DNA of 28,356 nucleotides from a virus. The stretch covers positions 1 to 28,356 of the IMG/VR virus record IMGVR_UViG_3300042197_001475; one strand, written 5' to 3'. The notes beneath the pieces were generated by a model. That model was not told the origin of the DNA, made no database searches, and saw only the letters and a list, made by a program, of their open reading frames with translations. Positions within the stretch are counted from its first letter, which is position 1. Each line of letters starts with the position of its first letter. The position numbers and the translations under genes are program-made. Shown one piece after another: positions 95-28,356 of the stretch.

Positions 95-284
95 CGCAAC
101 CACTATTTGACCGGCGGCGAATCTGCGGCGAATCTGCCATCATGTCGCGATCATGGCGTGTTCACGTTAATGCCAGTGTGCCAGTGTGCCACTGGGTGAC
201 GTTCGGCAAGCCGGTGTCACTGGCAGTGTGTCACCGTCACGTCATCGCATGGCTTGGCAACGTCACCGTGACATTGACCCCGGT
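95..284. repeat. Repeat-rich non-coding stretch upstream of the membrane protein gene
   Basis: I see no convincing gene here, but several short repeats. CGGCGAATCTG occurs twice in exact tandem (115-125 and 126-136). CCAGTGTG occurs twice in tandem (173-180, 181-188) and runs into CACTGG, giving the inverted repeat CCAGTG-TGC-CACTGG (181-195). CACTG-G-CAGTG (218-228) is a perfect 11-base palindrome, followed by TGTCACCGTCACGTC. Such clusters are typical of binding sites for a regulator or a replication initiator. Which of these applies cannot be told from sequence alone. No clear promoter or Shine-Dalgarno sequence precedes the ATG at 285. Confidence 0.5.
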
Positions 285-830
285 ATGACAGACACTCGGT
301 TTTTGGTGGCACTGTTGGGCGCACTGGCGGCGGCGGCTTTTGCCATCTCCGCAGGCAGTCTGACACAGTTGGCAGAGTCCAGGCATCTGCCATTCCCTTG
401 GCTTCTGCCATTCATCCTCGATGGTGGCGCAGTAGGTGTGGCATACGTAGCATACTCTGCTGCTTGTGACCGAGTTGCGAGCCGGGGCTATGCTGTCATA
501 GTCGCGGCATTCACGGCAGTGTCAGTGTCCTTCAATGTGTGCCATGTTTGGCATGATGATGACATAGTCACCAGCATCGTGCATGGCACTCCGCCAGTGG
601 TGCTGTACGTGTTCCTCGAGGTCTTGTTATCACGTCTCCGGCAGCAACGGTCACCGGTGCCGCGTGTCGAAGCGGATCGAGTGCCACCGACTGTGCCACC
701 GACTGTGCCACCCGTGGAACATAAACGTGCCACACGGAACACGGGGAACACGGTCACGGTGGCACAGCAAGCTGCCGCTGCCGGTGTGTCGGTGCGGACA
801 TGGCACCGTCGCCGCGCTAGGTCACAGTGA
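285..830 (+). CDS. DUF2637-like four-helix membrane protein with a basic HTH-like tail
   Basis: This is a 181-residue protein. Hydrophobic segments lie at about residues 6-26, 39-59, 69-87 and 96-116. The pattern of an Ala-rich first helix, the WLLPFILDGG motif before the second helix and a third helix with SVSFNV resembles the DUF2637 family of Actinobacteria, some of whose members are linked to plasmid transfer. The tail contains a VPPT repeat made by the 12-base repeat GACTGTGCCACC. It ends with a short helix-turn-helix-like stretch (VAQQAAAAGVSVRTW) and a cluster of arginines. I chose the ATG at 285 because the hydrophobic N-terminus starts there and the extension upstream is compositionally different. 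The gene is very rich in TGCCA/TGGCA, unlike the rest of the window, which suggests recent acquisition. Its 3' end overlaps the convergent regulator by 9 bases. Function is unknown. Confidence 0.6.
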   Translation: MTDTRFLVALLGALAAAAFAISAGSLTQLAESRHLPFPWLLPFILDGGAVGVAYVAYSAACDRVASRGYAVIVAAFTAVSVSFNVCHVWHDDDIVTSIVHGTPPVVLYVFLEVLLSRLRQQRSPVPRVEADRVPPTVPPTVPPVEHKRATRNTGNTVTVAQQAAAAGVSVRTWHRRRARSQ

Positions 831-2617: not shown

Positions 2618-3671
2618 AGGACTTTACCTGCGCCCTTCGAGCCTTGCCAGATACGAGGCGTGTCCCGCTTCGTATTGGCTCGGCCAGGGAATCACGCTCC
2701 CTGAGAGCAAGGATGCCGCCATCGGCACCCGGGTCCATGAATTCATGTCCGGCAAAAGCGTTACCCTCTCTGCTGACGAAGCGGACATGGTCGAGGTGCT
2801 GACCGATGCGTTGGCTTCTCTTTATGAGACCGAGCCTGACCTAGTCGAGATTGAGATCAAGGCGCATATTATGCTTCCGTCTGCCAAGCTGGAAGGCACC
2901 GCAGACCGGATCGAAGTCAGGGGCAATCGGATCACCGTCATCGACTTCAAGACCGGGCGCAATGCAGTGTCTCATGCGGCGACGAACCTTCAGCTGCACG
3001 CTTATGGATTGATCGCACTCTCCCGGCACCGGGGGGTGGAGGAGGTTGAGCTTGTGATTCTTCAGCCTTACGCCCCTAGGGGCGGAAGCCGTGCCGTGTT
3101 TACGCGGCAGGAGATGGCGCAGACGTATCACCGGCTTGTCGCTCTCGTCGGCGCCATCAATGCCGCCGCCCTGCGGGGGACGCCTCACAAGGGTGATCAC
3201 TGCACCTACTGTCCAGCCCTTGCCACCTGCCACGCGCACCGGGAAACCATTGGCGAACTTGCTACGGTGGATAGCCACCCGGGACGGTGGGAAGCTGCGA
3301 CCGTTGACGAAAAGCTGGCCCTTTGGGACAAAATCAAAGGAGCCAAGAAAGCCATTGCCCTCATCGAATCCCTCTATAGGAGAGACCTTGAAGGGAATGG
3401 AGACTTCTTCGGCGGGAAGATCTTCCTTGGTGCCGGACGCACCCAACGGGAAGTGACCGATCCCGGTGGCCTGCTGCGGGAACTGTCTCGCGAGTGTCAA
3501 CTCGACCCGGCGGAGTTCGCTCAGGCTTGCAAGGTGCGGCTGGGAGACCTCGAAGGCATCGTGAAAAAGCGGCAGTCGAGGAAGGGCAAGGAGTTCGCGG
3601 AGTGGTATGCCGGTATCCTCGACCGATACTCGGAAAAAACTACAACCAGGGGGGCACTGGAGACCAAGTGA
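2610..3671 (+). CDS. Cas4/RecB-like PD-(D/E)XK exonuclease with Fe-S cysteines
   Basis: This is a 353-residue protein. The nuclease core shows His43 (GTRVHEF), Asp99 (GTADRI), Asp112-x-Lys114 (VIDFKTG) and the Gln motif at Gln128/Tyr132 (NLQLHAY). One cysteine near the N-terminus (Cys18, YEACPASYW) and three after the core (Cys198, Cys201, Cys207 in CTYCPALATC) match the four-cysteine iron-sulfur pattern of Cas4 and AddB. It resembles the DUF2800-type phage nucleases. The likely job is to resect DNA ends and make single strands for the ERF protein encoded just upstream. I chose the ATG at 2610 because the conserved N-terminus (LRPSSLARYEACP) starts there and it overlaps the upstream stop. The stop overlaps the next start as GTGA. 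Confidence 0.85.
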   Translation: MTEGLYLRPSSLARYEACPASYWLGQGITLPESKDAAIGTRVHEFMSGKSVTLSADEADMVEVLTDALASLYETEPDLVEIEIKAHIMLPSAKLEGTADRIEVRGNRITVIDFKTGRNAVSHAATNLQLHAYGLIALSRHRGVEEVELVILQPYAPRGGSRAVFTRQEMAQTYHRLVALVGAINAAALRGTPHKGDHCTYCPALATCHAHRETIGELATVDSHPGRWEAATVDEKLALWDKIKGAKKAIALIESLYRRDLEGNGDFFGGKIFLGAGRTQREVTDPGGLLRELSRECQLDPAEFAQACKVRLGDLEGIVKKRQSRKGKEFAEWYAGILDRYSEKTTTRGALETK

Positions 3672-4486
3672 ATAACCTGGCCGAACTTGCAATCCCCATT
3701 GAGTTCTTTTTGTCCCGAGACTACCGGGGGAGCGAGCCGCTCGACCGAGGAACATGGCTTGCTCTCTTGGCTCATTGCTACGTGGAAGGCAACGACGGGC
3801 GCATCCGGGGCGCGGGACGATGGACCGACCGAACCGCACTTCAGGTGGCGGGCGTCACCATGCAGGAGATCCGCAAGGACTCCGGCTTGTGGACTTGGGA
3901 GGGGGAGGATCTCGTCGTCTCACACTACAAGCCCCGGCAACTCACGGCACCCGCCATCCCTGCGGCGAATCCTCCGCGAACGATCCGCACCTTACAGCAG
4001 GAAGCCTCGGAGATCGTTTCATTGTATCACAAAGCGGCAAGGGTGGGGCGCATCGTTGCTCAGTGTGAGTTCGCAATTCATAGGAGCGTGACGGAAGGGA
4101 AGGGGACTCTCGAAGAAATCCGCGTGAAAACGGAGGCCATTTGTATCATCCTCGACGCCCTCCAAGAACGTCGATGGATCCCCGCCCCGTTCACCTTCTT
4201 CGATCAGGAACAGTGGAGGAATCCACCCCAGTCGTTCCTGCCCCGTCAGGCTCCGGTGCAGCAGGCTCCGGCCCGCCAACCTTGGCAGGTCAAGAAAGAC
4301 TTGGAGGTCATCACCGAACAAATCAATGACCTCTGCACGTCGGAGGATAGCTATACCTACAAGCGAGTGGTGACCGACGAGGAGACCGGCTCGCGTGAGC
4401 TGCGGAAGCTGATGAAGGACGAACCAAAGCAACGCCTTGCCGCCCTTCGCGAGAAGAAGAAACAACTCCAACTTGAAATCCAATGA
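3668..4486 (+). CDS. Possible phage replication initiation protein
   Basis: This 272-residue protein uses a GTG start that overlaps the upstream stop (GTGA, 3668-3671). Residues about 1-90 look like the N-terminal winged helix of phage replisome organisers: IEFFLSRDYRGSEPLDRGTW, a helix, then WTDRTALQVAGVTMQEI and a final strand LVVSHYKP. The middle is helical. A Pro/Gln-rich linker (about residues 190-205, with repeated QAP) leads to a basic, coiled-coil C-terminus (KQRLAALREKKKQLQLEIQ). The position after the recombination genes suits a replication protein. No ATPase or primase motif is visible. An upstream in-frame ATG at 3494 exists but would lie deep inside the nuclease gene, so I rejected it. 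Confidence 0.55.
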   Translation: MNNLAELAIPIEFFLSRDYRGSEPLDRGTWLALLAHCYVEGNDGRIRGAGRWTDRTALQVAGVTMQEIRKDSGLWTWEGEDLVVSHYKPRQLTAPAIPAANPPRTIRTLQQEASEIVSLYHKAARVGRIVAQCEFAIHRSVTEGKGTLEEIRVKTEAICIILDALQERRWIPAPFTFFDQEQWRNPPQSFLPRQAPVQQAPARQPWQVKKDLEVITEQINDLCTSEDSYTYKRVVTDEETGSRELRKLMKDEPKQRLAALREKKKQLQLEIQ

Positions 4487-4761
4487 CCAGCACTATCATC
4501 AAAACACTCATGCCCAAAGAGGCTATCGAGTTCATCGCGCACCAGATCGATTCGATCCAGGCGCGACTCGGTCACACCCTCGACGATCAAATCGCCACCG
4601 TCAGCCTTGACCGATTGGCGGAAGATATGAACGTCCCGGTGAACTCGATCACGATCTTGATCGACCGTGCCAATCAACCAATCATTGCAATCGGGGGACG
4701 ACGCTTCGTCAGGAAAACCTCCTGGCTTGAAGTCCTCAAGCTCAACGAAAAGACCAAGTGA
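4483..4761 (+). CDS. Small winged-helix-like protein
   Basis: This 92-residue protein has a helix (PKEAIEFIAHQIDSIQARLG), then a segment resembling a helix-turn-helix (VSLDRLAEDMNVPVNSITILID) and a wing-like hairpin (PIIAIGGRRFVRK). This suggests DNA binding, but I cannot name a family. ATGA couples it to the upstream gene (4483-4486). Its end, AGACCAAGTGAA, is identical over 12 bases to the end of the nuclease gene at 3661-3672, and it also overlaps a GTG start. Confidence 0.6.
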   Translation: MTSTIIKTLMPKEAIEFIAHQIDSIQARLGHTLDDQIATVSLDRLAEDMNVPVNSITILIDRANQPIIAIGGRRFVRKTSWLEVLKLNEKTK

Positions 4762-5618
4762 AGATTCACACACGTCCAGCTCCAACAAATGCTGTTCGGT
4801 GGGTGGCATTCAGTTGCTCTCATTGCCCGCTCCAAGACCAAGAAGCGGTCGATGCCGTGCGGGAGGCTGTTGCCGACTTTGCACCTCACCGTATTGTCAT
4901 GCTGGGCGATCTTCATGAAGCGGATTCTGCGTCCCGGTGGCCGAGTGAATACGACTGGAGCATCGAAGACGAGTATATCTCCGCAAGCGAGATGCTAGCC
5001 TCGATTCGACTTGGACACCCAACCGGGGACGTGCAATGCGTGTTCTTGCCGGGGAATCATGACGCCAACATCGAGGCAATCGCCCGCCACCCGCGCAAGC
5101 AACGGGCGCTGTTGTCTTGGCGGGTGCCGCAATACATCCAGCGCAAACGGGGCGGCGAATGGTGGATTAACCAAGAGTTCTGCCAACACTGGCGGACGGT
5201 GGCGGACTACCGCTATTCGAGGAAGCGCGGCATCTACCGCATCGGCAGCACAGTCTTCACGCACGGCTACAATTCCGGCGTGAACGCGGACGAGGATCAC
5301 GCTATAGACCTTGGCTGGACGTTCGGACTTACAGTTTGCGGTCACAGTCATCGACCCACGGAAGGCTATGCTCGCCAGGTCATGAAGACACGTCGCCGCC
5401 CGCTGCCCTGGTGGTATCTAAACGCGGGTTGCACCCGAGATCTCTACCCGGAATACGCGGAACGGCAGTTCTCTTCCACCTGGGGGAACGGTGTAGCCTA
5501 CGGGTGGAGTATACCGATTAACTCTCCCCGCCATGACCGTTCCCACTGGGACGCATGGTGCGAGGTGACCAAGTTCCACGAATCAGCTTTTTCTCAACCA
5601 TACAAACACAATGCCTAG
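4758..5618 (+). CDS. Calcineurin-like metallophosphoesterase with altered first motif
   Basis: This 286-residue protein uses a GTG start at 4758 inside the upstream stop (GTGA). Motifs of the metallophosphoesterase fold are visible in order: SCSH near residue 20, VMLGDLHEAD, FLPGNHD, FTHGYNSG and VCGHSH. These are the metal-binding and catalytic blocks of the family. The first block usually reads DxH, but here the aspartate is replaced by cysteine (CSH). Phages encode such enzymes near replication and recombination genes, where they act on phosphodiesters, often DNA or cyclic nucleotides. The substrate here is not known. The C-terminus overlaps the next gene by 8 bases. Confidence 0.8.
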   Translation: MKIHTRPAPTNAVRWVAFSCSHCPLQDQEAVDAVREAVADFAPHRIVMLGDLHEADSASRWPSEYDWSIEDEYISASEMLASIRLGHPTGDVQCVFLPGNHDANIEAIARHPRKQRALLSWRVPQYIQRKRGGEWWINQEFCQHWRTVADYRYSRKRGIYRIGSTVFTHGYNSGVNADEDHAIDLGWTFGLTVCGHSHRPTEGYARQVMKTRRRPLPWWYLNAGCTRDLYPEYAERQFSSTWGNGVAYGWSIPINSPRHDRSHWDAWCEVTKFHESAFSQPYKHNA

Positions 5619-7827: not shown

Positions 7828-9000
7828 TCACTGACCAGTCAACCGTGAATGAGTAAGCGACCAATACCGTGTAGCTTCATCCGGCGTGCGGGCGTTTCGA
7901 TAGTGACGCATGAACGTCTTGATTTCTGTGTGACCCATCTCTGCGCGTACCGTGTCAGCAGTCACGCCAGGGCTTGCCGCAAGATATGAACCAAATGAGT
8001 GCCGGCATATGTCTCTGCTAGACCAATTGACGATCACAGACCCATCATCCCGCGTCAAGATACGGTCACGCCACCGGCGGAAGTTGCTCGGGCAGATCGG
8101 GCCGGATGGTTTGCGGAACGCTTGCAACCATGAGAACAACGTAGGATTCAACGTGACGTAGCGGTTGATCGCCCCGGTCTTGTCTGCGTTCTTGCTGTCC
8201 TTGACCCTGATCAATCCCTGATCCCATAACACGTCTTGCCATGACAAAGTGTTGGGACGCTCAAACTCACAGACCGGACGCACCCCGGCAAAGCAGAGCA
8301 CAGCGAAATACAGGGACATCGGGGGATGAATTGCTAGGCTACGCTGCAAGATTTCTTCGAGTTGCTCCGGCAATAGCACTGCCACCTCCTGAGCCGGGAT
8401 GGACTTTCGGCGGATAGCCTCGAGCGGGTTCCTCGGCACCCGGCCTTGCGCCATAGCATGACGGTAAAGACTGGTCATCCAAAGCAACGCCTCGTTGTAG
8501 GTCCGCTCCTGCCAACCCAAGCGGCGAGCAGTCGCCTGCAATTCGTCTCGCCAGAAATCGGTGTCCATCGTGCCGACACGTCGATCCCAGATCGAGGCAA
8601 ACGCACCCTGCAACCTCCGCCAATCTTTCTGCGTCGATGTCTTCGGGTAGTCCACCAGATAGGACTCGACAAGGTGAGCGAGGGTAGGCGATTGCAGTTC
8701 CGCCGACAACCTGCGCTCGAAAAGGTCGCACGCTTCTGCCAACCCGGACAACCCGAGGAACTGAAACACCTGATCGTAATGAACGGCTACGCGAACGAGG
8801 TCTTCGTTCACGCTCTTGACCGGCGTCACTTTTGCCGCGTTGCCCCGGGTCACTTCCTTCACTCGCAAGGCAGCCATGGCCTCGGAGTCGTAACGCTCCA
8901 ACGCTCGCTTCCCGCTTGCGGTCATGGAGGGGGGAATCGAGAGCAACCACTTGCGTTCCCTCGGGCAGTAGCGCGGGGACAGACTAGCTTTCTTGGGCAT
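7828..9000 (-). CDS. int: Tyrosine-type site-specific integrase
   Basis: This is a 390-residue protein. The N-terminal part includes a SAM-like core-binding domain (about residues 105-195). The catalytic domain shows Arg241 (FAGVRPVCEFE), a lysine hairpin with Lys270/Lys274, Arg333 in DICRHSFGSY, His357 in EMGHTEI and the nucleophile Tyr367 in RHYRN. The usual histidine of the HxxR box is Asp330 here. The C-terminus has a TRYWSL motif like those I associate with Verrucomicrobiota/Planctomycetota integrases. It would join attP (9735-10081) to a host tRNA-Ser gene. The endolysin gene lies between the integrase and attP. The 50 bases before its ATG carry phased GAATT repeats. Confidence 0.9.
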   Translation of the reverse strand: MPKKASLSPRYCPRERKWLLSIPPSMTASGKRALERYDSEAMAALRVKEVTRGNAAKVTPVKSVNEDLVRVAVHYDQVFQFLGLSGLAEACDLFERRLSAELQSPTLAHLVESYLVDYPKTSTQKDWRRLQGAFASIWDRRVGTMDTDFWRDELQATARRLGWQERTYNEALLWMTSLYRHAMAQGRVPRNPLEAIRRKSIPAQEVAVLLPEQLEEILQRSLAIHPPMSLYFAVLCFAGVRPVCEFERPNTLSWQDVLWDQGLIRVKDSKNADKTGAINRYVTLNPTLFSWLQAFRKPSGPICPSNFRRWRDRILTRDDGSVIVNWSSRDICRHSFGSYLAASPGVTADTVRAEMGHTEIKTFMRHYRNARTPDEATRYWSLTHSRLTGQ

Positions 9001-9007
9001 CGTGTCA

Positions 9008-9039
9008 GAATTTGAATTCCCCTGAATTCGAGGGAATTG
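9008..9039. promoter_or_regulatory. Phased GAATT repeats before the integrase gene
   Basis: GAATTC at 9014, GAATTC at 9024 and GAATTG at 9034 are exactly 10 bases apart, and GAATTT stands at 9008. AATTCCC (9015-9021) and GGGAATT (9032-9038) form an inverted repeat. The cluster fills the gap between endolysin and integrase, 8 bases before the integrase ATG. It is a candidate operator or DNA bend controlling the integrase. Confidence 0.45.
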
Positions 9040-9050
9040 GAACTGCGGTG

Positions 9051-9734
9051 TCAGAGCAGGAAGTCCACGATGCCATTCGCGACGGCACCGGCAAGTTCAC
9101 TCTGAGAGTTTTTCCACCGGTCCCAGTCGCCTTGGTGATCGCCAAAGAACGGCTCCACAATCACGGCGGGAAACTCGAAGCTACTGAGGAACCCCCTGCC
9201 CCGCACTGCGCTTTTCACCCCTCGGTTCACACCCTCCGGCCATGCCTGAGCGATTGCCGTGTTGATCGATCTTGCGAGACGTGTAGACCGAATGTCTTGA
9301 TCCGCGTTCCAGCACAGGACTTCATGCCCGGTGCCGCCCCCGCTGTTGAAGTGCAATTCGACGCCAACGGTGACCCCGTGCTTCGGGGCTTCCTCGGCAA
9401 GCCATGCCATCGCGGACCCGTAGGATCCGCCCTTGTACGCCCAGAACAGTTCGACCGTCAGGTCTGCCCGGTGCAACGCCCGCATCAGCTCGGTTGCCAC
9501 AACCCGGTTGTACGTCCACTCGGCCACCCCGCCCAGGCTGACGGCACCCCGGTCGCCCAACCTGCTGTGACCAACAAAGATGCCGACGACATCGTTCGAT
9601 TTGTTGCTTCGCGGACGAAGAGGCGGGGTCTTGCGAAGCTCTTCCTGCAACCTGATCAAGCCCTGCTCGGCTCGCTCATAGTCTTTGGCCCGGATAAAGT
9701 CGATAACTTGTGAGAAATGATGCTCCAGATTCAT
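9051..9734 (-). CDS. N-acetylmuramoyl-L-alanine amidase endolysin (Amidase_3)
   Basis: This is a 227-residue protein. After a helical N-terminal region (1-48) comes the Amidase_3 fold: zinc ligands His56 (FVGHSRLGDRGAV), Glu72 (GGVAEWTYN) and His128 (GVELHFNSG), with catalytic Glu194 (AVIVEPFFGDH). The enzyme cuts the bond between N-acetylmuramic acid and L-alanine in peptidoglycan and would lyse the host. No signal peptide is visible, so a holin would be needed for export. The N-terminal helices could be a wall-binding or regulatory part. It lies between attP and integrase, read in the late direction. Confidence 0.88.
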   Translation of the reverse strand: MNLEHHFSQVIDFIRAKDYERAEQGLIRLQEELRKTPPLRPRSNKSNDVVGIFVGHSRLGDRGAVSLGGVAEWTYNRVVATELMRALHRADLTVELFWAYKGGSYGSAMAWLAEEAPKHGVTVGVELHFNSGGGTGHEVLCWNADQDIRSTRLARSINTAIAQAWPEGVNRGVKSAVRGRGFLSSFEFPAVIVEPFFGDHQGDWDRWKNSQSELAGAVANGIVDFLL

Positions 9735-9757
9735 GGCTAATCGTTCGCGTTGGGATA

Positions 9758-9813
9758 CGGAACAAATTCTAGCAGATCAGAACAAATTCAAGAAGTTTCG
9801 GAACATTTTTGTT
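9758..9813. repeat. attP left arm: phased GGAACA repeats
   Basis: CGGAACA at 9758, CAGAACA at 9778 and CGGAACA at 9799 lie 20 and 21 bases apart, two helical turns. The first two continue as AAATTC. The third leads into GAACA-TTTT-TGTTC, an inverted copy. The same heptamer occurs on the other side of the tRNA-like core. This is the layout of arm-type integrase binding sites in lambda-type attP. Confidence 0.6.
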
Positions 9814-9911
9814 CAGCAAGGGTAAGCTACGGATGCCCAAAACCTAGCACCGTCCGCATGAAAAGCGAGCAATCAGTAGAAACATGACAGCATCGAGCGG
9901 CAACTGCCAGA

Positions 9912-9971
9912 AATCTTTGCTAAAGATGCGTAGTCGGAAGGCTACCGTGGGTTCAAATCCCACCCTGACCG
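9912..9971 (+). other. attP core: 3' half of a tRNA-Ser(GCU) gene
   Basis: The segment folds as the 3' half of a tRNA: anticodon stem 9912-9916 with 9924-9928 (one mismatch at the outer pair), loop TTGCTAA with anticodon GCT (9919-9921), a six-pair variable arm GTAGTC-GGAA-GGCTAC (9930-9945) as in class II tRNAs, T arm GTGGG-TTCAAAT-CCCAC (9947-9963), acceptor strand CCTGACC (9964-9970) and discriminator G (9971). No 5' acceptor strand (expected GGTCAGG) exists upstream, so it is not a working tRNA. CCA is not encoded. Phages that integrate into tRNA genes carry exactly such a 3' copy, which restores the host tRNA on integration. Confidence 0.85.
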
Positions 9972-10015
9972 GATTCTGAATGCCACCAAATGCCAATCAG
10001 GCACCTGACAGAATC
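9972..10015. repeat. Inverted repeat directly after the tRNA-like core
   Basis: GATTCTG (9972-9978) and CAGAATC (10009-10015) are a perfect inverted pair, with an inner TGCC-AATCA-GGCA. It begins at the base after the tRNA discriminator. In a lysogen it would stand just downstream of the restored host tRNA. No T-run follows, so it is not a standard terminator. Confidence 0.5.
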
Positions 10016-10057
10016 TCATAAGCCAAACAACTTGCGTCGTCACGTTTTCTAATAAAT

Positions 10058-10080
10058 CGGAACAATACGGAACAGTTCCG
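10058..10080. repeat. attP right arm: CGGAACA repeats and palindrome
   Basis: CGGAACA at 10058-10064 and 10068-10074 are direct repeats 10 bases apart. The second is part of the perfect palindrome CGGAAC-A-GTTCCG (10068-10080). They repeat the heptamer of the left arm, about 90 bases past the core, and end 2 bases before the stop codon of the giant ejection gene. Confidence 0.6.
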
Positions 10081-10081
10081 T

Positions 10082-13000
10082 TCACATTCCCCTTAGCTCT
10101 TCGGGAATCCGGGCAACGACAGTTCTGGTCAAAAGACCGTCAACTTTCCTCCATTCCGCCATCTTTGCCCTTCGTTGTTCTGGAGTCAGATTCTCAAGAA
10201 GCTGACCCATCACGATTGCCCTGGTCCCATCTGTAGAGCTTTTCGTCAACAGTCTCCGAACTTCTGGAGTCCTTGACTTCTCACGAATCTCCAATTCTGC
10301 CTTTGTTAATCTGTCCTTCAAAGTTTTTCCTTGGTCAGCAGAAATCAAACCTTGCTTGACCATCTCGTTGACTTTCTCAACCTTTGCATTGCCGGTCAGG
10401 TTGCGAATCTCGAACTGCGCCTTGGTGAACTTTTCCTTGTTAAGCCGGACTTCCCTTTGATCGGGGTTCTCGAGCAAGTTCCGCACATCGTCGTCCAGGC
10501 CCATGGACCGCAAGCTACGTTGTGATATAGGCACTACCAGACTGCGTCCCCCCTTAATGGCAGCAATACCCTCAAGGGACGCAAGAGTAAAGTCAGATAC
10601 TTCCTGAACGAAATTCTTCTCATTGTCTTTAAGGTTCCTGATTACTACCTTTAGGGGTTCACCCATTTCCAAAGCGGCTTGCGTGATTGGATTTCGCGAC
10701 TCATACCCTTTGACTCCAAAGCCAAAACGAATAATTGCGCCAAAGGCTTCCCCAAGAAACGGGATGCCGTTCAAAGGCCCGAGTAGCATTGCGAAAGCAT
10801 ATCGCGTTAACGAATCCTCACGGAATTCTTCTTTTTCTTCATCATCAAGCGACCCATATTTGAACAAATCACTGAAGGCTTGAAACGTAACTGGAACCAA
10901 AACGTGTCCAACAATCAGTCGTTTCATGCCCTCTTTGAACGCACCGGGTCTTCCATCAAAAGGATTGACCGCATACGTTGAGAGATAAAGGTTTCGTGAA
11001 TTGGTCATGAACACGTTGAACAACCCGCCGAGACTTCCTGAAAGCTCTAAATCAGTTTTGTTTGCCGGACCTTCGCCAGTTTGTGTTCTCGATGTGATTT
11101 CTGCTAGAGCATCTTCGCCTGCTGCGTCTGCTTCATCAATCACCTCTTGAGACGTGATGTCTTTCCCATTCGCTTTAGCTTGGTTCAAGTATTCCTGCCG
11201 CCCGTTCATGTAAACGGCATATCCACCGGACATCACAACTGCCATATCGCCCCAGGAAGAAGGAAACATGGAAGCCTCAATTACATACTCAGCAGAGTCC
11301 CTAGCCACCAACTTTCCTTTTTTCTTGTTGTACTTCCCGCTAAGAATAGTTTGCAACTGCTTGCTTTGCCCTTGCTTGAAGCGACTTTGAACAAAATCAC
11401 ATTCCAAAAACTTCCGAACTTGCGGCGACATTTCCCCACCAGTTGAAATCCTGACAAGTTCCGCACCAAATTCTGCCTCATACCGTGTGAAAGCCGCTGT
11501 TGGAACGTCAAACAAGTAGGCGGGATTGCCTGAAAGCTGCTTTGCAATCTGCGCTATATTCCCCGCCAGACCAGTCAAAACAAAGTTGCGTTTGATGGTA
11601 TCAACAAACTTACTATTGAACGCATTAACCTGACCATCCGTCGCAATAGCGTGAAGTTTCCGGTTGATCAACCTGCGAAGGTTATCCCCGCCAGACTCCG
11701 TCAACGCCTGCTGCATGTCTTTGTTCCCAAAGACCGAGTTCATGTCGCGGACTAGCTCTGCGTAATAAATATAGTGCGCTGCCTCTGACATGTGAGCCAT
11801 GTATTCTGCCATCGCTCCGTTTGTCAGATCTGGTTCTGCCAAATTCTGAACGCGATCAGAGAGGAAGCCGTAGGAAACCACAGACGAACTGGTGCGATTT
11901 CCGTTTTCTGTAACGTCGAGCAATGATGCCGCAGTGATCTTCTGCGCCGGAGAATAGTTCACGAACTTTGTCAGGTTCGTTCCATTCATCCGGCGGAACA
12001 CTTCGTTGACATCGGAATAAGCGCTCTCGTATTCAGCCGCCAAATGCTCTCGGATCGCAATGCTTCTAGGGGTCAGGAGTTTTTCGGCCTCCGCAATCAC
12101 CTCTTCAGTCCAGCCCCAGTATTCCAAGTTGCGACGTTGATCAGGTTGACGGGCAAGCATGGTGATCTTGATCAGATCGTCCTGCGACATCACCTGAGCA
12201 ACTTCTTGGATAGCGTCCCAGTCAGTCAAGTCCAAGTCTTGCAGGTTCTTTTTCTGCTTCAAACGGACTTTCTCTTGGTTCTTTGCAGAGATGAACTCTC
12301 TCAAAGAAGAAAGAGTTTCAAGGCCTGCATCGTCCATAACTGGACCAGATCTGACAATCGAACTATTCTGCATCGCCTGTCGCACAACAAGGCCGGAATC
12401 GTTAATGTTTAGATTGAGTAGCTGCTTAACTCTTTTTTGATCAACAGGCTTAAGTGCTGCAAACTCAGCATCAAACTCTTCAGAGTTCAAAGAATTCAAA
12501 CGCCGGATCAACGCTTCGTGCAAACTGGTCAACTCTGCTTCCTCGGACTTCACAAGAGATTCCAAAGCAGCAACTTCTGTTTCGTAATCTTCCAATGCTT
12601 CAAATACAACTTGCATTTGCCCTTTGGAAAATGCTTTGCCGTCCTTGGTCAATAGAGTTGCGCCCAGGTCTATAGCTTGCCTCGCTTCTTCTATCGAAAC
12701 CGTTTGCTTGAAACGATGCTGTTGTCCTGGTTCTTTGCGTAGAACTGTTGCACGTTCCTCGGGCTGAAAGTGATCCAGCAAAGAAAGCTCTGTATCGCGC
12801 ACAAATCGCCTACTGTTAAGGTCAATCCCACTTATCTCGGCAATGACCCTAAGAAGCGAAACAAACTTTTCTTGTGCATACTTCTCTCGATTCCGAAATG
12901 CCTGATTTTCTTTTGCGGCAAAAATCTTGTTCAAGTAGCCTTTGAAACCTACTGCACTCGGGTCTAGCCTTGATGCCAAGTTCAACATGGCATCGAATGT

Positions 13001-19284: not shown

Positions 19285-21570
19285 TCAAATAGTCTCGGTT
19301 GAATCCCACTCGATGCACAAGCCCAAGATCTGAGCGGGCAGTGGCGTTGCCTGCCGAAGTTTGAGCCTCGGCACCCTGCTGTGAATCCCGGCGACTGCTG
19401 CTTCTACTGGTCCAGTTCGCAGACTTGGCGGATTCTCGATATTCTCTGACGCCACCCTAGTTTGCAACTGATAATACACGTTCCGCTCCGCATCGGAGTA
19501 TTCGATGCCGAACGAGTTGTAGAGGTCAACCAAGATACGTGAGATCTTCCCTATCTTGTATCGCGTCATTCCGGCCCGAGTGTTGGCCATAAGAGGCAAC
19601 GTCTCAACAGTCGATGTCATCGGCAACCCAACACACACTACGGCATTGGTGACAGACCGATTCAGCGTGATTGACCCTGACGCAACAGTCACTCGGGGAT
19701 GCGTTCCGCCTTCAACTAGCACATCGACTTGCGTTCCGTTTAGATAACTCAAGCCAGTTACTGTTACCCCTGTAACGCCCGTGACAATCTTCCCAGAATC
19801 AAGAAACAAACACTGACTTGCCGTCCCGGTTAAGACCAGATCAGGGGTCTCCGGGTGAAGACGTTCAATGCGTCGGTCATTCGATCCAGTGACTTTCACC
19901 GACACCCACACCTCATCCCCTGCCGCCCCGGGGATGGTCGCCACACTTTCAATCGTGCCAGCACTGTGAACGTGCTTGTGCCACCCCATCAACGATTCTG
20001 CCCGGTCATAGTTCACGCCTACTAGCTTGCCGTCCACTACTGCCCAGATGATAGGGTCAGGCTGCTGACTGGTCGCCATCTGAACGATGCCCTTGCTTGT
20101 GATATGTTCTGCCACCCTTGTCAAGTCTCCGGCGGCATAAGGATCTCGGGCAAGGTCGTCTCGTTGGGTGTCCAAGCCTATGTAGTCGCGGATCCGAGTC
20201 CCTCGACGCTCGACGAACAAAACGCTATCGTTTAATGTTAGTGCCGGCAGAGCAGCAGACCCATAAGCTGTAGACTTTTGCGCAGATGCGTTGTCTGGGT
20301 CAGATGCATTCCGAATCACCCATTCGTCCCCGGCAGTTCCGACAATCAACGCCCCGCCCCGGGAGATCAACCACTGGATCTTGTCTGCCGTCGAACTGTA
20401 AAGCGTTTGTTGCAGGGCGAGGTCCGGCGACTCAGCCTCCCGGCGGAAGTTGTCGAACTCGTCAATTGCGGAAGCGAACAGAGTCAACGGTTCGCGTTTG
20501 GTCCCAGCAAACCAAAGTCTGCCATCATGCAGAATGACCTGCCGGGGATAGCCATTAGGTTTGCTCCAAGACCCTTCGGCCCAGTATGTCGTCGCAGTCG
20601 TCGCTAGGAACGGCTCGATAATGTCCACCGTTACTGACGTGCTGCTCGCTCGCGCAGTGATCTTTGCGCTTCCCCATACTACTGGGTTAAGAGCATCGAT
20701 AGTTGCCCTCGGGCTTCCTGTTGCGCTGGAGTAGTTGGTTGTCGTAACCCTCAAGTATGTTGGCTCGAAGCAAGTGCCGATGTATTCGATGTTTCGCTCT
20801 CCGGCGATCTGCCAAGACTGCAACACTTCCCAGGTGCTGTTATCTTTGCTTTGTTCAATGCTAATCGTTGAAACAAATGTCCCGGTTGTTTTGAAAACAA
20901 ACTCTCCCTGAGTGAGGATAGACGATGACGAACTGTTACTGCTGATCGCCAAGGCCACCGTGTTCTCGGCGCGGACGTGTCCAATACGCCAGTGACTTCC
21001 GATGTAATCGTTACTTGTCCACAAGGCAGAAGATGCCGTCAAGGTGCGGGAATTGCCGCTGACATGGCTTGGCGTGATAGTCAGCGTTCCTACGTTCTCG
21101 TCAATAAATGGTTGTGCGCTCAGGGCAAACTCAGTCAACGTCCAGCTTGTGTCCGAAACCCGAACCAGTTTACGCGGAGCATAGTTCGGGTGGACGATGA
21201 ACACAGTGTCGAGGATCTGCTCTGTCCGCAACTCATCGAGGTCTGTTGACAAATACGGAGTCGCAAACGTCACCGGGGTTCCACCACCACTGGTGACCAA
21301 TGCGCCGTCTTTGTAAACTCGAGCAGTTTGATTGCCAAACGCCAACACCAGTGCTGTCGTCGAGGAGAAGCGAAACGGAATCAAGCGCACCTTGTTCTGC
21401 CCATGCGTGTCAATGTATTGGAACCCCGGACGGCGAGTGATCCCACCGTAGGGCAGCACCATGAAGTTCTCCAAAGATGCCACCGAGGAGTAATACCGCT
21501 CCATGTCGGAGCGGGGCCACAACCTCCGCGAGATCTCGCCACCGGCTAAACTGAAGACTTGGCTAGTCAT
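19285..21570 (-). CDS. Tail tubular protein B (nozzle)
   Basis: This is a 761-residue protein. The start (SLAGGEISRRLWPRSDMERY, then ENFMVLPYGGITRRPGFQYI) is the typical opening of T7 gp12-like nozzle proteins. Beta-rich repeats follow, with the conserved block WSKPNGYPRQVILHDGRLWFAGT near residue 335. The protein forms the end of the short tail below tail tubular protein A and contacts the fibres. The length is close to that of T7 gp12 (about 794). Its ATG overlaps the stop of the tail tubular A gene (ATGA, 21567-21570). Confidence 0.88.
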   Translation of the reverse strand: MTSQVFSLAGGEISRRLWPRSDMERYYSSVASLENFMVLPYGGITRRPGFQYIDTHGQNKVRLIPFRFSSTTALVLAFGNQTARVYKDGALVTSGGGTPVTFATPYLSTDLDELRTEQILDTVFIVHPNYAPRKLVRVSDTSWTLTEFALSAQPFIDENVGTLTITPSHVSGNSRTLTASSALWTSNDYIGSHWRIGHVRAENTVALAISSNSSSSSILTQGEFVFKTTGTFVSTISIEQSKDNSTWEVLQSWQIAGERNIEYIGTCFEPTYLRVTTTNYSSATGSPRATIDALNPVVWGSAKITARASSTSVTVDIIEPFLATTATTYWAEGSWSKPNGYPRQVILHDGRLWFAGTKREPLTLFASAIDEFDNFRREAESPDLALQQTLYSSTADKIQWLISRGGALIVGTAGDEWVIRNASDPDNASAQKSTAYGSAALPALTLNDSVLFVERRGTRIRDYIGLDTQRDDLARDPYAAGDLTRVAEHITSKGIVQMATSQQPDPIIWAVVDGKLVGVNYDRAESLMGWHKHVHSAGTIESVATIPGAAGDEVWVSVKVTGSNDRRIERLHPETPDLVLTGTASQCLFLDSGKIVTGVTGVTVTGLSYLNGTQVDVLVEGGTHPRVTVASGSITLNRSVTNAVVCVGLPMTSTVETLPLMANTRAGMTRYKIGKISRILVDLYNSFGIEYSDAERNVYYQLQTRVASENIENPPSLRTGPVEAAVAGIHSRVPRLKLRQATPLPAQILGLCIEWDSTETI

Positions 21571-26729: not shown

Positions 26730-26978
26730 TTAAGCGGGCCACCATGTAACCGAGTATCCAATCTCGCTTCGTTCTTCGATGCGTTGGATCTCTCCTTCCC
26801 TAAGCAACTGTTGCATAACAGTTGCAAAGCGCAGCTTCACGTTGTCACAATTGATCTGCCGGTTTGTTCTGCCTCTGTCACGCAACGCCTTCAGCACGTA
26901 AGGCCAAAGCTCTGCGGATGTTCGCCCGGGATTCTTCCCGATCACCTCGATGACGATCTCGTCGTACGGAATTACCAT
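26730..26978 (-). CDS. Small winged-helix-like protein next to the terminase
   Basis: This is an 82-residue protein. YDEIVIEVIGKNPGRTSAEL, then WPYVLKALRDRGRTNRQI and VKLRFATVMQQLLREGEIQR, ending with a wing-like ERSEIGYSVTWWP, fit a small winged-helix DNA-binding fold. It overlaps the 3' end of the terminase gene by 7 bases. Its place after TerL suggests a packaging or regulatory role. A small terminase is conceivable, though it is short for one and usually precedes TerL. Confidence 0.6.
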   Translation of the reverse strand: MVIPYDEIVIEVIGKNPGRTSAELWPYVLKALRDRGRTNRQINCDNVKLRFATVMQQLLREGEIQRIEERSEIGYSVTWWPA

Positions 26979-28356
26979 TTAATTACCTCCAATTTTCCTT
27001 TTCGTCTTTCGCCAAAGGAGTTTGGTGATGCCAATCCCAGCTTGAAGGCATCGGCAAACGTGCGAAATGCATCCGCGCAGTGCGATGTGTGGTCGTGTAA
27101 TGGTTGCTCCTTGAATCGACCGTTGTCGTTTTTCACGTCTTTTCGATAGGAAGCCAGTAGCTGTAGCCCGTGTTTGCATCTTGTGTGAAAACAAAACGAG
27201 TCGAGCAGTCCTCTTGCTTCGTTGATGCCGATCCACTTGTCAGTAGTTCGGGGAACAACAATGCAGTTTCTCAAGCCTGCTGCTTTTGCTTCGGTAAGGA
27301 ACGTCTTACCGGAAAGACTATGGTGCGCCGCATCGTGCGGGAGAAGGTGCCTAGCCACCGTGATTTCCAAGTCCCTCTCCCAAGTGGCAATGACTGATGC
27401 GTAGTGATCGATGGGTTGCCCGTTGCTTTCGTAGTAGGCAATCGCCCGGAAGTCTAGCTTGGTCACTTGGATAAGCCAAATGGCAGTAGAGTCTGAGTGT
27501 CCCAAGTCCCAAGCGGCATAGATAGGATGGAACTCCTGCGGGTAGAAATCCCCGAACCGGCCTTGCGCCTTCAGCTTGCTGACCTGATCGCCATAGATGG
27601 CACCCTCGATAGGGGCGCGGAACATGTCTTGCGGAGTAGCGGGCCATTCGCGGAACGCTCGTCCCTTCATCTTGCGATGCTCGTTGGCCCAGAACATTTT
27701 CTGTTCATCCGTCAGCCTGACCCCGTCTTTTTCCCAGCCGGCAAAAACTTTGTTAGTCTCCGGCGTGACATGCACTGATCCCACAGGCAACTGGTTTTTA
27801 GAGTCCATCTGGAAGCCGAAGAAGAGGAACTTGAACTCTCGCTTGTGCAGTTCCGCTCCCATCCGCCCTTGCGCTTCCTCGATGAGATCGTAAAACAACC
27901 CAGACGGCGGGCCTTTGTAGGTGGACTCGATGTCAATCGTACACCCGGTAGCCACTGCCGGGAACGCACCGTCGATGATGTTCTGCGCGTCCCGGGGACG
28001 TTCGTCGCAGATAGGTCCGAACTCTGATATGTGCAAGGCTTGCAATGTGCCACCTCGGAAGGTCGTCGAGCAACTGTAGGTGGAACCGTTTGACCATTCC
28101 ATCCACGTCTCGCCCCTGCTGGTCAGCTTGATCTTGTTGTGAATGTATTGATGGATGCTGTCCCTAGTAGCCTGCGAGACTCCGGGGATGTGCAAGCCGA
28201 TCCGCTCCCATGCCTCCTGTAGGATTGCCATCTTGCCCTTGGCATCGTCCAGCTTGAAGTCGATGAGACCGCAGGTCTGCGTGTCGTTGAAGATCGCCCG
28301 GTCGAGGTTGCCCAGGCCGATGCGGGTGGAGAACCCGGCACGTCTAGCCTTGGTCA
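26972..28356 (-). CDS. terL: Terminase large subunit (5' end beyond the window)
   Basis: About 461 codons are visible and the frame stays open to the right edge. The first residues (TKARRAGFSTRIG) are the terminase's Walker A-like block, so at least the part before it is missing. A later in-frame ATG at 28231 is internal. Further on are LQALHISEFGPICD (Walker B-like), IESTYKGPPSGLFYDL (coupling motif) and the nuclease acids in AAWDLGHSDSTAIWL, LPHDAAHHSLSG and HTSHCADAFRTF. The enzyme pumps DNA into the head with ATP and cuts the concatemer. It leads the late operon. Confidence 0.9.
   Translation of the reverse strand, partial: TKARRAGFSTRIGLGNLDRAIFNDTQTCGLIDFKLDDAKGKMAILQEAWERIGLHIPGVSQATRDSIHQYIHNKIKLTSRGETWMEWSNGSTYSCSTTFRGGTLQALHISEFGPICDERPRDAQNIIDGAFPAVATGCTIDIESTYKGPPSGLFYDLIEEAQGRMGAELHKREFKFLFFGFQMDSKNQLPVGSVHVTPETNKVFAGWEKDGVRLTDEQKMFWANEHRKMKGRAFREWPATPQDMFRAPIEGAIYGDQVSKLKAQGRFGDFYPQEFHPIYAAWDLGHSDSTAIWLIQVTKLDFRAIAYYESNGQPIDHYASVIATWERDLEITVARHLLPHDAAHHSLSGKTFLTEAKAAGLRNCIVVPRTTDKWIGINEARGLLDSFCFHTRCKHGLQLLASYRKDVKNDNGRFKEQPLHDHTSHCADAFRTFADAFKLGLASPNSFGERRKGKLEVIKW

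Follow-up and report, generated by a model that had tools for sequence, protein, structure and literature searches.

The gap at 9735-10081 of the window (the whole stretch of 28,356 nucleotides analysed here, IMG/VR record IMGVR_UViG_3300042197_001475) is very probably the attP site of a temperate podovirus-like phage of Verrucomicrobiota, which would exchange strands in the anticodon loop of a host tRNA-Ser(GCU) gene, and the sequenced molecule would be unintegrated. An earlier note, made from the sequence alone, had proposed an attP in a tRNA-Ser(GCU) copy. Three findings now support this proposal strongly: a collinear relative shares the core, repeats of the arm type flank it, and a further relative is integrated at a tRNA gene. 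The features are collected in Table 1. The gap measures exactly 347 bp from the endolysin ORF to the 2216-aa ORF, and phage genes lie on both sides of it, as the note had stated.

Table 1. Features of the putative attachment site, its surroundings and compared loci. Positions are those of the window unless a locus is named.
Feature	Position	Strand	Remark
HTH_17 protein, 83 aa	1251-1502	+	PF12728 E 1.2e-8
Tyrosine integrase, 390 aa	7828-9000	-	phrog_1 integrase E 8e-22; PF00589 below its cut-off
Endolysin (N-acetylmuramoyl-L-alanine amidase)	9051-9734	-	PF01520 E 3e-13, phrog_435; between integrase and attP
Candidate arm-type site 1, CGGAACA	9758-9764	+	
Candidate arm-type site 2, CAGAACA	9778-9784	+	one-base variant; 20 bp from site 1
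Candidate arm-type site 3, CGGAACA	9799-9805	+	21 bp from site 2
Putative attP core, tRNA-Ser(GCU) copy	9913-9971	+	5′ anticodon stem to discriminator G, without CCA; 56/59 against the genes in L007, L008 and L011
Probable crossover region	9913-9927	+	perfect inverted repeat ATCTTT-GCT-AAAGAT, the anticodon stem-loop
Candidate arm-type site 4, CGGAACA	10058-10064	+	
Candidate arm-type site 5, CGGAACA	10068-10074	+	10 bp from site 4
Giant structural gene, 2216 aa	10082-16732	-	other side of attP; "ejection protein" by position only
Large terminase (terL)	26972-28356	-	PF17289 C-terminal domain, below cut-off; frame open to last base
Prophage-like modules near tRNA	L066 10842-10918; L068 10686-10769		

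The core is 59 bp long (ATCTTTGCTAAAGATGCGTAGTCGGAAGGCTACCGTGGGTTCAAATCCCACCCTGACCG) and corresponds to the 3′ portion of a class II tRNA whose anticodon is GCT. It comprises the anticodon loop TTGCTAA, a variable arm (GTAG/CTAC) and a T arm (GTGGG TTCAAAT CCCAC), and it ends with the acceptor strand CCTGACC and discriminator G; CCA is absent. The earlier note had described a partial tRNA without its 5′ half, and this description held. ARAGORN found no complete tRNA in the whole window, and the covariance-model check, an Rfam search, returned no tRNA at the site. Two Rfam matches, to ceN70 and plastid psbl-rps4 (E 0.1 and 0.41), were dismissed as chance or as antisense to the tRNA part. Near the site there is no host 5′ half (GGTCAGGTGGCTGAG.GGTC); its sole match with three mismatches, at 20055, lies inside a tail gene. 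A functional phage-borne tRNA gene was therefore ruled out. As for pairing, the acceptor strand CCTGACC pairs with host GGTCAGG, and the T and variable arms pair as well, so that recombination would rebuild an intact tRNA. At variable-arm position 20/29, both sides differ between window and host (C-G to G-C), a compensatory change that keeps the pairing. Across the window, the relative phage described below and the hosts, 72 of 72 base-pair cells in the three tRNA helices pair, against 31-58% in controls with slid partners. Because only six distinct sequences carry this pairing pattern, the covariation alone is suggestive rather than strong.

To find candidate host genes, a pattern scan was made of contigs from 84,980 genomes, one per species. 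There were six matches, all in Verrucomicrobiota MAGs and each within a complete tRNA-Ser(GCU) gene; thus, the match is far beyond chance. In the genomes sampled, the six belong to one family-level group. One of the MAGs is labelled Akkermansia muciniphila, and its assembly is 6.5 Mb. The closest three genes (L007, L008 and L011) have three substitutions relative to the 59 bp of the window copy, two of which are the compensating pair in the variable arm; none of the three genes encodes CCA. The host site had been predicted to end in CCTGACC and discriminator G, perhaps with no encoded CCA, and these details agree with the three MAGs. The exact gene that was also predicted was not found: in a search of 240 genomes of the order and 75 of the family, the best were three genomes within three mismatches, identical to each other and with differences in the variable arm. 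The earlier note had further suggested looking for this integrase beside an identical gene in bacterial genomes. The best match there was 56/59, and no homologue of the integrase or of other window proteins was found in 8-kb stretches (5.4 kb for L009) around the six tRNA-Ser genes. A prophage of the window phage with its attL/attR pair was not found in the sampled genomes, and an exact scan of viral contigs for a 53-base core gave no match. On the sequence evidence, the host can safely be assigned to the phylum Verrucomicrobiota, and perhaps to a family.

The observation in the window recurs in a second phage, IMGVR_UViG_3300012000_000132 (23,039 bp), whose integrase is 52% identical to that of the window. 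The two phages are collinear from terL to the integrase: terL, portal, scaffold, major head and tail genes are followed in the relative by a 2050-aa giant gene, a gap, an endolysin, the integrase and a tail-fibre-like gene. The giant gene of the window had no family match in domain and phage-family profile searches; its homologue in the relative occupies the equivalent place with 33% identity, and the endolysin likewise has its counterpart in the equivalent place. The gap of the relative also contains a tRNA-Ser(GCU) copy, which starts at the identical anticodon-stem base; its variable arm is different but still paired. This site reads as an independent repeat of the observation in the window. 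When viral sequences were scanned a second time with an alignment of three integrase sequences, only this phage was returned.

The repeats that the note had seen around the tRNA copy proved to be real. CGGAACA occurs four times in the 347 bp, always on the + strand, against 0.05 expected from the rest of the window, and none of 5000 shuffles of the gap held four copies. Under a looser control, some 7-mer occurred at least four times in 1% of shuffles. Therefore, the count alone is not decisive, and it is the recurrence in the relative phage that decides. In both phages five GGAAC words point the same way (one with a one-base change in the window); three stand between the core and the endolysin and two towards the giant gene, at intervals of 10-21 bp. 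The spacing is 20/21 and 10 bp in the window and 21/11 and 11 bp in the relative, where the copies (GGAACGA) stand at 3389, 3410 and 3421 and at 3677 and 3688. This layout, 3 + 2 in one direction at about one to two helical turns, is that of arm-type sites, to which the integrase would bind.

The integrase possesses R241, K270, R333, H334, H357 and Y367; where box II would have its histidine it has D330. In about 26 verrucomicrobial relatives, R241, R333 and Y367 are invariant, H357 is nearly so, and K270 is less well conserved. The first histidine of the HxxRH box, D330 in the window, is D or N in nearly all of these relatives. A pattern scan of genome contigs with the integrase gave 22 pattern matches, none of which was a relative. 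An integrated relative is present in genome G002, where an integrase at 36.5-37.9 kb of contig C45 is about 45% identical by tblastn (55% without its insert). Immediately upstream is an intact tRNA-Thr(TGT) gene. The 3′ part of this tRNA recurs 12,200 bp away, at the other end of a 12.2-kb element, as a 45-bp copy whose first bases, GATTTGTAATC, belong to the anticodon stem. Three + three phased repeats accompany the core (GTCCC words at +107, +118 and +140 and at -104, -93 and -81), 11-22 bp apart and roughly 80-140 bp from it. As read from its sequence, this element shows the integrase lineage in the integrated state, at a tRNA gene, with a crossover region that matches that of the window. 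The genes of the element (L051, G002:C45:25000-38400) include those for a second integrase, a DnaB-like helicase, a DUF2637 protein and a VRR nuclease; none homologous to the structural genes of the window was found. It is possibly a satellite or integrative element that shares integrase and DUF2637 genes with the window phage. The DUF2637 protein of the window (186-830, + strand; PF10935 E 4e-15) lies in the phage early region, and its homologue in the integrated element is 35% identical.

Besides the missing exact host gene and prophage, two observations count against the attP reading. Firstly, the integrase relatives in the sampled Verrucomicrobiota use Thr, Gly, Val, Arg and Trp tRNAs: apart from the tRNA-Thr case, more distant relatives adjoin tRNA-Gly, Val, Arg and Trp genes. 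This variety implies that the integrase family changes its target tRNA easily, as is known for other integrases (PMC8371274). Secondly, the tRNA copy points away from the integrase in the window and in the relative phage, whereas the tRNA reads towards the integrase in the G002 element and in several other relatives (compared in L012 and L039).

We propose the following mechanism. The integrase would bind the inverted repeat ATCTTT-GCT-AAAGAT together with the helically phased GGAACA arm sites to either side of it, and the 7-bp anticodon loop in the tRNA-Ser(GCU) gene of the host would be where strands are exchanged. The 7-base loop TTGCTAA (9917-9923) is the likely overlap. We infer exchange in the anticodon loop because identity with the host tRNAs and with the copy in the relative phage begins at the crossover region, because the inverted repeat is perfect, and because of the integrated relative. 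The anticodon loop is established as the overlap for tRNA-targeting tyrosine integrases (PMC8371274). Since the 3′ part of the tRNA is present in the phage, it would join with the host 5′ half to restore a working tRNA-Ser beside the giant gene, and the displaced 3′ fragment would come to lie against the integrase-endolysin end. The identity of the core, its left edge, the pairing, the arms and the duplication in the integrated relative lend support to this mechanism, and the tRNA neighbours of many more distant integrase relatives agree with it. The position of cleavage, the binding of the integrase and the integration of the window phage are steps that it predicts. The 83-aa HTH_17 protein might serve as the excisionase or recombination directionality factor.

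In a single integrated prophage, the genes that flank attP would stand at opposite ends. The earlier note had worded this as the tRNA halves being apart, which is incorrect: it is the two phage arms that separate, and each end of the prophage then has the 3′ part of the tRNA, one end within the restored gene and the other as the displaced fragment. The late gene order is unbroken through attP in both of the diverged phages, which makes unintegrated phage DNA the most likely source of the sequence. The "free phage form" of the note thus stands as the simplest reading, since the arms are contiguous in both phages, but tandem prophages also hold an internal attP and the contig is fragmentary. It is unlikely, though conceivable, that a genuine attP was sequenced from tandem prophages, or that the assembly mixed reads from an excised circle and a prophage. 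In either case attP would be unsplit, and the record is a linear metagenomic fragment in which terL is open to the final base of the contig, so the genome is incomplete. However, the relative, about 50% diverged and in a separate record, has the unsplit order too, and host sequence is found at neither end of the window.

That the copy is instead a decayed phage-borne tRNA gene, or a captured piece of tRNA with no role in integration, is very improbable. Only the 3′ part is present and no complete tRNA was called, as this explanation would expect. However, the truncation point is identical in two diverged phages, the variable arm has undergone a compensatory change, and the copy keeps a conserved position near the integrase between phased repeats. 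Barely credible is tRNA-dependent lysogeny, in which the host tRNA is disrupted by a short shared core and replaced by a full tRNA encoded by the phage: attP does overlap a tRNA gene, but its core, at 59 bp, extends to the 3′ end of that gene, and ARAGORN found no tRNA gene in the window (an incomplete genome), at odds with the short core (~10 bp) and complete phage-encoded tRNA of matching isotype that define this system (PMC10865867).

The attachment mechanism itself is textbook knowledge, and the site in the window is a clear and well-formed instance of a common arrangement. The core of phage lambda attP is flanked by arm-type sites on both sides. The window site resembles it in its repeated, putative arm sites on both sides of the core (five in the window and five in the relative phage), and differs in the words, number and spacing of the arms and in having a tRNA anticodon stem-loop as core. 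In Islander, 2083 of 3919 islands are anticodon-centred and 3760 have 3′ fragments (PMC4383910); anticodon-centred tRNA sites are termed class A (Williams 2002, as cited in PMC4383910). Like these sites, the window has a tyrosine recombinase with its catalytic residues, a probable anticodon-loop crossover, a tRNA copy that runs from the anticodon stem-loop to the 3′ end of the gene, and a tRNA that would be rebuilt. Unlike them, it is known from the phage form only, with an endolysin between attP and the integrase and with attP inside the late block. By 2013, marine metagenomic phages had been assigned hosts by attP-tRNA matches, including one Verrucomicrobia phage, group G11 (Mizuno et al. 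2013, PMC3861242). The logic is shared, in that an integrase and a partial tRNA in a phage contig name the host phylum. Their matches were exact, whereas the best match of the window is 56/59, which carries the assignment to the phylum, or perhaps the family, only. The nearest annotated integrases (26%) are those of the Akkermansia phages Chantilly (ON453895) and Chambord (ON453894), which share a verrucomicrobial host but are distant and differ in genome layout.

An anonymous contig thus becomes a temperate phage for which the integration gene and the host phylum can be named, in a phylum where few phages are known. It also provides a complete putative attP (core and arms) with its integrase for a verrucomicrobial mobile-element lineage, which is directly testable as an integration tool. 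The less usual point of the system is the position of attP within the late gene block. The site splits a run of same-strand late genes into a structural side and an endolysin-integrase-tail-fibre side, and the endolysin lies between attP and the integrase in both phages. No sigma-70-like promoter was found in 8900-10300. Integration would part the structural operon from the genes for lysis and integrase, and excision would bring the two together again; that lysis might be expressed with the late operon only from the excised circle is a tentative and rather doubtful idea.

Two further observations were made. Prophage-like podovirus head-tail modules in two Verrucomicrobiota genomes adjoin tRNA-Val and tRNA-Leu genes, just upstream of terL. 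These distant prophages have related tail genes, but their layout differs, and they were set aside as no test of the window site. The best conserved protein between the two phages is a metallophosphoesterase (70%), encoded at 4758-5618 (+) in the window and at 8385-9218 (-) in L050; its place and orientation relative to terL differ between the two.
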